The notes under the pieces were generated by a model. It did not search any database and had not been told where the DNA came from. It worked only from the letters and a program-made list of their open reading frames with translations. A DNA stretch of 64,000 bases from Gemmatimonadaceae bacterium (GTDB taxonomy: Bacteria > Gemmatimonadota > Gemmatimonadetes > Gemmatimonadales > Gemmatimonadaceae): contig JACCWE010000091.1 in the NCBI GenBank assembly GCA_013697785.1, forward strand, positions 1 to 64,000, given 5' to 3'. Position 1 is the stretch's first letter; the number at the start of each line of letters is the position of its first letter. The position numbers and the translations under genes are program-made. Positions 18,329-22,509 of this stretch are shown here, piece after piece.

Positions 18329-19654
18329 TCAGAACGTCGTGATCAGCTGTCTGGAGACCTTGGTCGAGTCGCCGACGTACGCGAAGTGCATTCCCTTCAT
18401 GTACTTCCTCGACGCATCGCGGATCTGCTCCGGCGTCACCGCACGCAGCTGATCGACGAACTGCCCCGCGAGCCGATAGTCGCCGCGGTACAGCTCCGCT
18501 CGCGCGATCTGGTTCGCCTGCTCCGCGTCGGTCTCGTTGTTCAGGTAATACTCGGTGATGAACTGCTGCACGATCACGTTGAGGTTCTCGGGATCGAGCA
18601 GCGTCGTCTGCATCCGCGCGATCTCGCGGCGCATGATGCCGAGCACCGAATCCGGATACACCGTGGTGACGTACAGTCCGCCGGATGAGATCGCGCGCTC
18701 GACGAATGGCGCGGACACGTCGTACGTCAGGTTGCGGCGCACGCGGATTTCGGTGAAGAGCCGCCCGCTCAACACCGACGTCGCGATGCGGAGCGCCTGG
18801 TAGTCGGAGCCCGTGGAGCGGGGGCCCGGGTAGTAGCCCAGGATGTAGTTCGTCGGCAGTGCGCGCTGCACGAAGATCGCGTCGGCCGGACGCACGACAG
18901 GATTGGGCGGCGGCGTCCACTTGTAGTTGCCGCGCGGAAGGGTTCCAAGCGTGGGCAGGATGAGCTTCTCGAGTCGCGCGCGCTCGATGTTGCCGACGAC
19001 GACGAGTAGCATGCGCGACGTGACCATCTGCGTCGCGCGATACTTCTGCAAATCGGCGACGGTGATCGATGAGAGCGAATTCGCGTCGCCGGTGGCCGGC
19101 ATCGCGTACGGCTGCCCGGCGAAGAGGAGGCTGTCCGCGAGCCCTTGCACGAGATCGTCGGGCGAGTCGTTGCGCTGGCGCACTCCGGAGAGCACCTGCG
19201 CGCGAATGAACTCGACGTCGGCCGGCGCGAGCGTCGGCGCCATGAGCCTGTCGGCGAGGATCGCCCACGTGCTGTCGAAAGTGTCGCGGGTGCCGCGGAA
19301 GCCGAACACGGTCCAGTCATCGCGTGGCTCGACGATGATCGTGCTGCCGAGCGCCGCCATCTTGGAGGTGAGCGCATCGCGGGAGTAGTGCTTGGTCCCA
19401 CGCTCCGACGCCCAGAGCAGCAGCGGCTCGGTGCCGGCCGTTTGCGGAGTCGACTGCTGGTTGCCGCCCAGCAGGTAGAGATTGGCGGCGACGACATCGT
19501 TGGCCGCGTTGCGACGCAGGATGACGTGCACTCCGCCGACATCGAATACCGAAGTTGAGGTGTCGGTGCTCGCGCGCTGAGCGGAGGCGGGGAGCGCCCC
19601 GCCGAGCATCGCGAAGCCAGCGATGACCACGCGAGCGACGAGTGCGCGGCTCAT
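18329..19654 (-). CDS. M16 peptidase-like protein lacking the zinc-binding motif
   Basis: A 441-residue secreted protein (signal peptide to about residue 25, PASAQ). It has the M16 two-domain layout, with NDSPDDLVQGLADSLLFAGQPYAMP and the C-terminal R/Y stretch RRNLTYDVSAPF that closes over substrate in this family. The HxxEH zinc motif is absent; the aligned region reads LLLWASERGTKHY. In known two-subunit M16 peptidases one subunit is catalytic and the other is not, so this is probably the non-catalytic partner of the gene just upstream, whose stop overlaps this start as ATGA. Confidence 0.88.
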   Translation of the reverse strand: MSRALVARVVIAGFAMLGGALPASAQRASTDTSTSVFDVGGVHVILRRNAANDVVAANLYLLGGNQQSTPQTAGTEPLLLWASERGTKHYSRDALTSKMAALGSTIIVEPRDDWTVFGFRGTRDTFDSTWAILADRLMAPTLAPADVEFIRAQVLSGVRQRNDSPDDLVQGLADSLLFAGQPYAMPATGDANSLSSITVADLQKYRATQMVTSRMLLVVVGNIERARLEKLILPTLGTLPRGNYKWTPPPNPVVRPADAIFVQRALPTNYILGYYPGPRSTGSDYQALRIATSVLSGRLFTEIRVRRNLTYDVSAPFVERAISSGGLYVTTVYPDSVLGIMRREIARMQTTLLDPENLNVIVQQFITEYYLNNETDAEQANQIARAELYRGDYRLAGQFVDQLRAVTPEQIRDASRKYMKGMHFAYVGDSTKVSRQLITTF

Positions 19655-21126
19655 TGCACACCTACGACGTTCGCATGCTCGCCCTGGATCAGCTCTTCCT
19701 TCGTGAGATTGAGCTGCTTTCGGTCCTCGGGCGACAGAAGGACGCCGGTGACGTGCGGCTTGCCGACGATGTAGCTGTGCGCGTACGCGCGCAGATCAGC
19801 GGGGGTGCGTCGAGCCATGTTGTCGATGTATCCCATGTAGTAGTCGAGACCCGCCACGCTCCACCAGAAGCCCAGCTCGTGCGCAAAGCCCGATGCGCGC
19901 TCGAGGCCGAGCACCGTTCCAACCTTGCGCTGCTGCTTCTGCGGTCCGAGCTCGGCGACGCTCATGTAGCCGGGCTTGTCGAACTTCGCGATCTCCTCGT
20001 CGAGCGCGGCGAGGGCGGGGCGCAGCTTGTCGGCGGTCGTCTCGCCGCTGATCGTGATCGGGCCGGTCTGGTTGAGCGTGTAGTAGTTCACCAGCAGCGA
20101 GTGCCAGAGCCCACTGTCGACGAGGCGGCGCTGGAACGCGGAGCCGTCCTGATTGAGAATGCCGGAGAAGACGTCGGCTGCGTACGTCGCATCGGGATCC
20201 TTCCCGACGCTCGGGCCGAGCCACTGCATGATCACGGCAACCGTGTTCACGGGCTGTTCGATGATCACCGCGTCGTTCCCCTTGAGTGGCGGAATGGGCG
20301 GAATCGGATTCGCGATGAACGGGTCGGCGCCGCGCGCTATATCGCCGTAGATCTTCTCGGCGAGTTTGAACACGGTGTCGGGAGAGACGTCGCCGGCGAC
20401 GATCAGCGCCGCGTTGTTCGGGACGTAATAGCGATGCTGGATGATCCGCATCTTCTCGGGCGTCGTCGTGCGCACGATGTCGCGATCCCCGAACTTGTTC
20501 TTGCGGCTCCACTCGGTGGTGTAGAGCGTCTTCCCCATCTGCTCATCGAGCCTGAAGTACGGACTCGACTCCTGGCGGTCGTATTCGCCGAGCACGACTT
20601 CGCGCTCCGGCGCGAGCTCCTCCTCGCGGAAGAGCGGCGAGCGGAACGCGGATGCGAGGAAGCGCATACCGCCGACGAGCGAGTCCGCGGGGACGGTGAG
20701 GTAGTAGTTCACCACCTCCTCCTGCGTCTGCCCATTGAACACGGCGCCCAGCTCCGCGGCGCGATCGATGAACTGCTCGGGCTCGGGGTAGTCCTTGTTG
20801 CTCTTGAAGAACATGTGCTCGTAGAGATGCGCGAGTCCTTCGTACTCGTGCGTCTGCGTGAACGAGCCGTTGCGCACGTCCAGCTCGACGGTGGCGAGGG
20901 GCACGCCGTGATTCTCGACGACGATCACCTCGAGGCCGTTCGAAAGGATCTTCGTGTGAATGATCTTCTCGAGCTTGGCACGCTGCGTGAGCACAGCGGG
21001 AGCAGGTGCCGCTGGCGCAGGATGCGCTTGCTTCGTCTTCTGCGCAGGGAGCGCGATAGCCGCGAGCGCCAGCGCGCAGCTCATCAAGCAGCTGCGAATG
21101 GTCGAGAGAATCAGCGAGTTGGACAT
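19651..21126 (-). CDS. M16 zinc peptidase, catalytic subunit
   Basis: A 491-residue secreted protein with an N-terminal signal (to about residue 28). An Ala/Pro-rich linker precedes the catalytic domain, with inverted zinc motif HLYEH in EGLAHLYEHMFFKS and the distal Glu region APEREVVLGEY. This is the pitrilysin/insulinase signature. It heads a two-gene operon with the non-catalytic partner, and the pair likely forms a clamshell peptidase for short peptides in the periplasm. A near-palindrome ATACACTGTAT lies 34 bases upstream of the start. Confidence 0.92.
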   Translation of the reverse strand: MSNSLILSTIRSCLMSCALALAAIALPAQKTKQAHPAPAAPAPAVLTQRAKLEKIIHTKILSNGLEVIVVENHGVPLATVELDVRNGSFTQTHEYEGLAHLYEHMFFKSNKDYPEPEQFIDRAAELGAVFNGQTQEEVVNYYLTVPADSLVGGMRFLASAFRSPLFREEELAPEREVVLGEYDRQESSPYFRLDEQMGKTLYTTEWSRKNKFGDRDIVRTTTPEKMRIIQHRYYVPNNAALIVAGDVSPDTVFKLAEKIYGDIARGADPFIANPIPPIPPLKGNDAVIIEQPVNTVAVIMQWLGPSVGKDPDATYAADVFSGILNQDGSAFQRRLVDSGLWHSLLVNYYTLNQTGPITISGETTADKLRPALAALDEEIAKFDKPGYMSVAELGPQKQQRKVGTVLGLERASGFAHELGFWWSVAGLDYYMGYIDNMARRTPADLRAYAHSYIVGKPHVTGVLLSPEDRKQLNLTKEELIQGEHANVVGVQ

Positions 21127-21159
21127 GCGGGAAAGCTAGAGGGGGAAGGAGTGCATTTC

Positions 21160-21170
21160 ATACACTGTAT
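21160..21170. promoter_or_regulatory. Palindrome upstream of the M16 operon, possible GntR-type operator
   Basis: ATACACTGTAT is an 11-base palindrome (5-bp arms around C) placed 34-44 bases before the M16 start on the minus strand. GntR-family operators often have GTnTAnAC-like symmetry, and a GntR-type regulator gene lies 400 bases away. The link is inference. Confidence 0.3.
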
Positions 21171-21332
21171 ATGACGATCGGTGCCCATAGTACGTACTGC
21201 TGTCGGCCTGCCTGTTTAGGGAGTCTTTTGCGCGAGTCGCACGCTTCCATTGTAGCCATCGCCAAGCCCCCGCTATCCTCCCATCCATGACGATATCGCT
21301 CGTGTTCAGCAATTCGAACTGGCGTCTTCCGG

Positions 21333-21351
21333 CGTGCCGCAATGCGGCACG
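21333..21351. repeat. Perfect 8-bp inverted repeat
   Basis: CGTGCCGC (21333-21340) and GCGGCACG (21344-21351) pair perfectly around AAT. This could be a protein-binding palindrome or an RNA hairpin upstream of the terminator at 21405. Confidence 0.5.
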
Positions 21352-21404
21352 TGTCGGAGCACGAGGGTGTGTTCGTCGATAGCGCGTTACACTCGCGCGA
21401 CCCG

Positions 21405-21445
21405 TCGCCCTTAGGTGCCGTTACGTAGGGGCGATTTCTTTTTTT
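21405..21445 (+). terminator. Strong rho-independent terminator or attenuator without an upstream gene
   Basis: The arms TCGCCCTTA (21405-21413) and TAGGGGCGA (21426-21434) give a 9-bp stem with one G-U pair and a 12-base loop, followed by TTTCTTTTTTT. It reads on the plus strand. The only plus-strand candidate before it is an unsupported 31-codon ORF (21287-21382), so it may end a small RNA or act as an attenuator for the tiny ORF 23 bases later. Confidence 0.7.
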
Positions 21446-21467
21446 GTGTACTTCACCTCGGAGCCCC

Positions 21468-21563
21468 ATGTTCGGATTCAGGGAAATCGCGGCCATGGGC
21501 ACGTTCACGCACTTCGATGTCAACGGCACGGTCGACATGCTTCCCCTTACCGCATCGCGATGA
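21468..21563 (+). CDS. Tiny 31-residue ORF, possible relic of a moaC-like start
   Basis: ATG 21468 follows GGAG at 21460-21463 by four bases. The peptide contains FTHFDVNGTVDM, whose spacing THxDxxGxxxM matches the conserved N-terminus of MoaC (molybdopterin biosynthesis), where MVDV follows; here it reads MLPL and a stop comes six codons later. It may be a truncated relic, a regulatory leader peptide, or chance. It lies directly after a terminator and runs toward the end of the convergent regulator gene, 13 bases away. Confidence 0.3.
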   Translation: MFGFREIAAMGTFTHFDVNGTVDMLPLTASR

Positions 21564-21576
21564 GCCGCGCGCGCGA

Positions 21577-22509
21577 TCACGCGCGTGCGCTCAGGGCGGC
21601 GAGGTTCGCTTTGAGGATGAAGGAGATGAGCTCCTCCGCGGTAGACGACGAGAAGGTGCGCGCATTCGGGAGCATGCGTCCGCCTACGTCGTGCTCGCGC
21701 CCTGCGTCGCGCAGCCAGTCGCGTGCGCCGCGAGTGACGTAGGTCGGCGCACTGGCGGGGATTGCGGTGACGTCGTCGGTATCGACGATGAGGACGCGGA
21801 GATTTTCCTTTCCCTTCGTATTCTCGAAGAAGGCGAGCAGCGCATTCTTGAATTGCGTATCGCGCACGATGACGTAGACCGGCTTGCGCAGCAGCAGGCG
21901 CCACTCGCCTCCGATCAGATCCGTGCGCACATCGGCAATGATGCAGGGCTTTTCGAGCTGCGCGGCGATCTTTCTGACGAGCGTCTCGTGCGCCGGTGTG
22001 GTCACGAGCAGATCTGCCTCGCGGACCTCCGGCGAACGTACGGTGCCTCCAATCTCGTCGAAGCCCACGGCTGAAGCCTCGAAGCCATAGTCTTCCTCGA
22101 GCTCCGTGCACATGCCGGTGCGCTGGTCGGTTACCGCGTGGATGACGACCGCGCGCAGGCGCATCGTCTCGGTGGCACGGCGCAGCGAGTCGATCACTCC
22201 CCGCATCGACATATCGCGCGCGCGGCCCTGCATGAAGATCCCATGCAGCCAGTGCTCCGGCGGCATCGGCTCGCGCACTGCTCCGACGGTGGCGTTCGCG
22301 ACGTAGATCCCGCCGCGAGGGCGCATCTCCACGAGCCCCTCAGCCACCAGCTGATGGTACGCAGCGACCACGACCCGGTGATCGACGTCGAAGTCCGCTG
22401 CCAGCTCGCGCGTGCTCGGCAGCCGGTCGCCCGTCGAGAGCGAGCCGGCGTTGATTCCGAGTCGGACTCTTCTTCTCAGCAAGTCCGCGATTTCCTGACG
22501 CCGTTCCAT
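21577..22509 (-). CDS. GntR-type transcriptional regulator
   Basis: A 310-residue protein. The N-terminal winged helix (about 5-75) has the GntR signature LSTGDRLPSTRELAADFDVDH and LVAEGLVEMRPRGGIYVA. The C-terminal ~220 residues are not FCD or UTRA domains that I recognise; alternating strands and helices (RAVVIHAVTD, LLVTTPAHETLVRKIAAQ, RVLIVDTDD) suggest a periplasmic-binding-like or receiver-like ligand fold. The gene is divergent from the ferritin-like cassette, and the 271-base gap between them holds two inverted repeats that could be its operators. Confidence 0.85.
   Translation of the reverse strand: MERRQEIADLLRRRVRLGINAGSLSTGDRLPSTRELAADFDVDHRVVVAAYHQLVAEGLVEMRPRGGIYVANATVGAVREPMPPEHWLHGIFMQGRARDMSMRGVIDSLRRATETMRLRAVVIHAVTDQRTGMCTELEEDYGFEASAVGFDEIGGTVRSPEVREADLLVTTPAHETLVRKIAAQLEKPCIIADVRTDLIGGEWRLLLRKPVYVIVRDTQFKNALLAFFENTKGKENLRVLIVDTDDVTAIPASAPTYVTRGARDWLRDAGREHDVGGRMLPNARTFSSSTAEELISFILKANLAALSARA

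Follow-up and report, generated by a model that had tools for sequence, protein, structure and literature searches.

A structured RNA leader and candidate transcription attenuator upstream of a small gene in one genus of Gemmatimonadota

What is encoded in a 450-base gap (positions 21127-21576) that contains a strong terminator on one strand and is bordered by genes on the other? The gap lies in a 64-kb window (the whole stretch of DNA analysed), which is part of a source assembly (G000) of 169 contigs and 3.8 Mb. A first-pass annotation had reported, between two minus-strand genes, a perfect 8-bp hairpin, a strong terminator and a tiny open reading frame with a good ribosome-binding site, all on the plus strand, and had read them as a small RNA or a leader/attenuator. 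We found that both flanking genes are indeed on the minus strand:

19651-21126, minus strand: M16 peptidase gene, left flank of the gap
21577-22509, minus strand: GntR regulator gene, right flank of the gap

The reported hairpin and terminator are also present. The hairpin, CGTGCCGC-AAT-GCGGCACG at 21333-21351, has a 3-nt loop. The terminator stem, at 21404-21435 on the plus strand, has 10 bp, extended by another 3 beyond a single mismatch, and is followed by a T-tract, TTTCTTTTTTT, at 21435-21445. A simple terminator scan (loop limit of 8) missed this site, because the 9-bp stem as first annotated leaves a loop of more than 8. A wide scan of the 64 kb found two sites on the plus strand and none on the minus strand, and 21404-21445 was much the stronger of the two. 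The terminator is strong, as claimed, and surpasses any other intrinsic terminator in the window. The control, a wide scan of six first-order Markov sequences, yielded 2, 1, 0, 0, 0 and 0 sites of any quality.

We searched 60 relatives with the region. Matches across the whole locus came from four congeners, G001 to G004; the remaining matches were mostly short pieces of the M16 gene. A leader ending in the terminator and a gene downstream from it are both present in G003 and G004 (two of the four congeners) and both absent from G001 and G002, where the region upstream of the M16 gene runs nearly straight into the end of the GntR gene. We also noted, at 21158-21174, a near-palindrome (TCATACACTGTATATGA) that lies upstream of the M16 gene. 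ATTTCATACACTGTA is exactly conserved at the same place in four of the five genus genomes, G002 being the exception, and has a single copy in each of these four; this site is possibly the M16 promoter or an operator. Reading the sequence at the other end of the gap revealed, at 21563-21590, a GC-rich inverted repeat that lacks a T-tract and overlaps the GntR stop codon.

The tiny open reading frame has 31 codons and a GGAG as its ribosome-binding site, as had been described, and comparison with G003 and G004 indicated what it is. In both genomes, the gap sequence continues up to the ATG and is followed by an intact 156-codon open reading frame in the same frame. The tiny open reading frame consists of about the first 9 codons of this gene fused in frame to about the last 22:

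21460..21463, plus strand: ribosome-binding site (GGAG) of the remnant gene, separated from its ATG by four bases; a purine-rich stretch also precedes the ATG in G003 and G004
21468..21563, plus strand: 31-codon remnant of the 156-codon gene, 375 bp shorter, frame kept

The start of the remnant matches G004 at 23 of 27 bases and G003 at 22 of 27 (9 codons), and the end matches at 49 of 66 and 48 of 66 bases, respectively. The genes in G003 and G004 are both longer by the same 375 bp. Since both its start and its end match the intact gene, the tiny open reading frame is an in-frame deletion remnant, and the assembled sequence contains a 375-bp deletion. Among the carriers of the leader, only the source genome appears to have undergone a large coding loss. 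The last 22 codons in the window still look selected (pS 0.62 and pN 0.12 compared to G004; 0.57 and 0.13 compared to G003), which points to a recent deletion or a fault in the assembly. The context differs from the one given in the first-pass annotation: in the relatives, the terminator precedes a real gene, and the tiny open reading frame is its remnant.

The intact gene is under purifying selection. Between G003 and G004, synonymous differences (pS 0.38) exceed non-synonymous differences (pN 0.11), which marks it as a genuine protein-coding gene. When 179 family genomes were searched with the protein, G003 and G004 alone had intact copies at this locus. There is one paralogue in G000 (L042:1423-1794) and one in G001 (L041:1405-1884), and distant homologues were found in 14 of 395 sampled phylum genomes, a count that includes G000, G001 and G004. 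The paralogues belong to a family of barrel proteins that is scattered through the phylum. No family in Pfam or NCBIfam matched the 156-aa protein, and a sequence search of the PDB gave nothing below E 0.26. AlphaFold2 predicted eight strands, with a mean pLDDT of 72.3 (4 sequences) or 80.1 (18 sequences). The nearest folds in the PDB, all weak matches, were barrels of the dirigent, allene-oxide-cyclase and Diels-Alderase type (best E 0.0036 and 0.0089; query TM-scores mostly 0.4-0.5). Based on these models, the product in the relatives would be an eight-stranded barrel protein. It is probably exported, because several homologues have hydrophobic N-termini.

The sequence upstream of the gene is conserved as a structured leader. 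Its parts are as follows:

21287..21445, plus strand: structured leader RNA with an intrinsic terminator at its end (identity, indels and consensus fold)
21289..21377, plus strand: predicted 5' domain (by folding), closed by GACGA (21289-21293) with TCGTC (21373-21377)
21333..21351, plus strand: hairpin 1 (8 bp, loop AAT), within the 5' domain; two pairs double-changed in G003; G004 has lost two outer pairs
21382..21398, plus strand: hairpin 2, GCGCG/CGCGC; invariant in the three genomes, which speaks neither for nor against pairing
21404..21445, plus strand: intrinsic terminator, 10+3 bp stem then TTTCTTTTTTT (scan and three-genome comparison)

Of the 163 columns in the alignment of the leader from the window, G003 and G004, one is an indel. 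In the stretch 21287-21447, the window is identical to G004 at 148 of 160 sites (92.5%) and to G003 at 130 of 161 (80.7%). Just upstream (21221-21286), it is identical at 49 of 66 sites (G004) and 44 of 66 (G003); at the coding end of the GntR gene, the numbers are 256 of 304 and 234 of 304. The plus strand folds into the 5' domain, a small hairpin and a terminator with a stem of 10 to 14 bp (14 bp in G003 and G004), and the terminator stem and T-tract are conserved in all three genomes.

We found that the changes in the leader mostly preserve pairing. RNAalifold gave a single fold with 52 pairs for the three-genome alignment, and in this consensus fold 94.9% of 156 cells are paired (8 of 156 are unpaired). 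Five pairs are double-changed (compensated), compared to 2.0 expected, in an alignment of only three sequences from which the structure was also derived; 2 of 500 shuffles were as high. Controls in which the alignment was slid gave pairing of 26-56% and 0-2 double changes. The plus strand had a z of -6.07 (0 of 300 column shuffles as low). The minus strand scored too (z of -3.68; 1 of 300 as low), because the stems are symmetric. The 5' domain alone distinguishes the strands, with a z of -4.42 on the plus strand versus -1.3 on the minus strand. Folds of the single sequences had z values of -2.86 (window), -3.15 (G004) and -4.31 (G003); hairpin 1 of G004 by itself was weak (z of -1.40). Hairpin 2 and the closing helix are invariant in the three sequences, and hence give no covariation signal either way. 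Conservation of the stems in relatives had been proposed as the check on the first-pass reading. The stems are kept, with compensatory changes, in two of the four congeners, which supports the reading as a small RNA or a leader/attenuator.

We looked for coding in the leader. A 31-codon open reading frame spans 21287-21382. The differences between the window and G003 fall at its three codon positions 8, 7 and 9 times, pN is close to pS, and we saw no codon signature or selection at the level of protein. It was rejected as coding for lack of a codon signature, as was a 68-codon open reading frame on the minus strand, which has a stop in G003 as well. By these comparisons, the leader appears to be RNA and not protein.

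The leader is apparently restricted to three genomes of one genus (G000, G003 and G004). Rfam 15 had no matches over the window at the curated threshold, and the best score within 21200-21480 was for M23, at 15.1 bits (E 2.6) versus a gathering score of 41.2. A DNA search of 148 family genomes with the leader found it in these three genomes and found two 31-base fragments in G023. A covariance model of the leader, searched against 179 family genomes, scored 186-191 bits at the three source loci. Below them came a long tail of matches from 26.5 bits down; at E up to 1, there were matches in 65 genomes in all. We inspected six alignments from the tail, found the conserved block in none, and rejected these matches as distant copies of the leader. 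We judge the tail to be chance. One of the six, in G017 (L054:1501-1658), shares only a similar terminator and T-tract (TTTCTTTTTT); it lies after an open reading frame that we read as selD-like and just before one that we read as a HAD-type hydrolase. The model was also run on 21 loci homologous to the protein gene and matched only the G004 source locus (the next score was 7.2 bits). Besides G004, one weak upstream stem (L084) was found by a terminator scan of 14 homologous loci, a set that leaves out L078, L080, L082, L083, L088, L089 and L095.

How would the gene be transcribed? No sigma-70-like promoter passed a scan of 20500-22300. Comparison of the three genomes and folding of the RNA gave two further candidate features:

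21250..21279, plus strand: candidate promoter TTGTAG-N18-TATCCT (weak; three-genome conservation)
21359..21371, plus strand: 5' strand of a possible antiterminator, pairing with 21403-21418 (predicted in all three genomes)

The candidate promoter is conserved as TTGTWG-N18-TAWCCT in the window, G003 and G004, with 6-7 of 12 matches to the consensus. It is one of two conserved plus-strand candidates with similar scores, and conservation rises just downstream from it. In the window, the spacer between the T-tract and the ATG is 22 nt. This spacer has diverged (8 of 21 compared sites are identical to G003) and so leaves little room for a conserved promoter of the gene. It is therefore most likely that transcription of the gene begins upstream and has to run through the terminator. 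The leader is positioned before a gene under selection, with its terminator upstream, in the same orientation and close to the gene start (intact in G003 and G004), as in an attenuator.

We folded the RNA cut before the 3' arm of the terminator. In all three genomes, the predicted fold pairs 21359-21371 with 21403-21418, a pairing that breaks the 5' domain and blocks the terminator. At 133 nt, the predicted probability of this antiterminator was 0.59 in the window and 1.00 in both G004 and G003. By 148 nt, the probability of the terminator was 1.00 in all three; that is, the complete terminator always wins at equilibrium. The best duplex with the 5' arm of the terminator was equalled by 55 (window), 402 (G004) and 40 (G003) of 1000 shuffles. 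The antiterminator helix is nearly invariant in the three sequences and has no covariation. As modeled, the order of folds has the layout of an attenuator with a kinetic choice.

We think it fairly likely that the gap encodes the 5' leader of the small gene and that this leader controls the level of the gene by attenuation. A plus-strand transcript would probably start near 21287, fold into the 5' domain and the small hairpin, and usually end at the terminator (21404-21445). The gene, 22 nt downstream, would be read by those polymerases that continue beyond the terminator. The leader would thereby set how much of the gene product is made (transcription attenuation), and the most likely switch would be a competition among the 5' domain, the antiterminator and the terminator. 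The leader is probably a cis-acting attenuator, or one that also yields an sRNA. What the sequences show is the conserved structure, its place before a gene under selection, and the deletion; transcription, its start site, readthrough and switching are inferred. Some findings count against attenuation: the promoter candidate is weak, the antiterminator does not reliably outdo the shuffles, the completed terminator always wins at equilibrium, and the leader is apparently absent from other members of the protein family. In addition, a 14-bp stem is stronger than usual in attenuators, according to Naville and Gautheret (PMC2965389).

Could the leader be an independent trans-acting sRNA, ~160 nt long and equipped with a promoter and terminator of its own, followed by an unrelated gene that is read by leak-through? 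Its very strong terminator, its folded 5' domain and its intact appearance in the window despite the deleted gene would fit. We consider this unlikely: leader and gene co-occur or are co-absent in the five genus genomes, the gene would be without a conserved promoter of its own, and one leader can do both jobs, as reported for UpsM (PMC5089854). The 31-codon open reading frame at 21287-21382, at or near the 5' end of the RNA, might instead encode a leader peptide, with ribosome stalling picking the antiterminator or the terminator in trp-type fashion. It has the same length, and its ATG and TAG the same place, in all three genomes, and its stop directly follows the antiterminator strand. There is also the case of the ilvB-II motif, which had been taken for an RNA motif and turned out to be an upstream open reading frame of such a type (PMC10272879). 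A leader peptide is quite improbable here, given that the differences are distributed evenly among codon positions, that no amino acid occurs in a run and that the sequence has no ribosome-binding site; the ATG and TAG also lie in or beside RNA helices that could explain their conservation.

It is also conceivable that these are chance hairpins in a GC-rich spacer, or that the gap holds a decaying gene remnant with no RNA function at all. The downstream gene is broken in the window, GC-rich DNA readily forms stems, and the antiterminator is within the range of shuffles. Against this stand the covariation, the plus-strand bias of the 5' domain, an identity above that of flanking DNA, and a T-tract kept in three species, and we regard chance as very improbable. 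A different doubt concerns the deletion. If the 375-bp loss were an assembly artefact, the whole gene would really be present in the source genome, and the reading of the leader would be unaffected. The 169 contigs of the assembly and the selected look of the C-terminal codons (pS 0.62 and pN 0.12 versus G004) are compatible with an artefact. The lost middle part does not turn up elsewhere in the assembly, in which a protein search picked up just the remnant and a paralogue of 34% identity, and we find an artefact rather improbable.

Attenuators of the trp type have mutually exclusive helices and a leader open reading frame that encodes a peptide rich in one amino acid. The proposed attenuator has the order of mutually exclusive helices and the leader open reading frame in common with these and with the ilvB-II motif (PMC10272879), and differs from both in having no codon signature and no amino-acid-rich peptide. 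It resembles the 5'-UTR attenuators obtained from analysis of premature terminators by Naville and Gautheret in 2010 (PMC2965389) in having a terminator oriented with the gene and near its start, and in being a lineage-restricted leader with a potential antiterminator and no known ligand. In contrast to those, which are found in many species ahead of the same gene family, it occurs in three genomes of a single genus and has a terminator of unusual strength. By the account of Naville and Gautheret, attenuators are diverse and evolve quickly, and only a small part of them is annotated; an element restricted to a genus fits this picture. Like the UpsM leader of the dcw cluster of Rhodobacter sphaeroides (PMC5089854), it is a long 5' UTR with an intrinsic terminator in one lineage; on termination, the UpsM leader also serves as an sRNA. 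The downstream genes are unrelated, and transcription of UpsM was demonstrated experimentally, whereas here it is proposed from sequence.

As a kind of system, an attenuator is ordinary. We found no description of this individual element in Rfam or in the literature searched, and a search of titles and the starts of abstracts gave nothing on attenuators in Gemmatimonadota, a phylum in which regulation by RNA seems to be little described. As a speculation, for which we would give low odds, the 5' domain may be the sensor of a hitherto undescribed RNA switch, restricted to the genus, for an uncharacterised exported barrel protein, and the terminated form may also be an sRNA that has outlived the lost gene. 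The remnant at 21468-21563 illustrates that an apparent small open reading frame can be the scar of a deletion. If confirmed, attenuation at this locus would provide a small example, open to testing, of a leader RNA that is young and was gained with a gene, and would show the fate of a leader once its gene is gutted.
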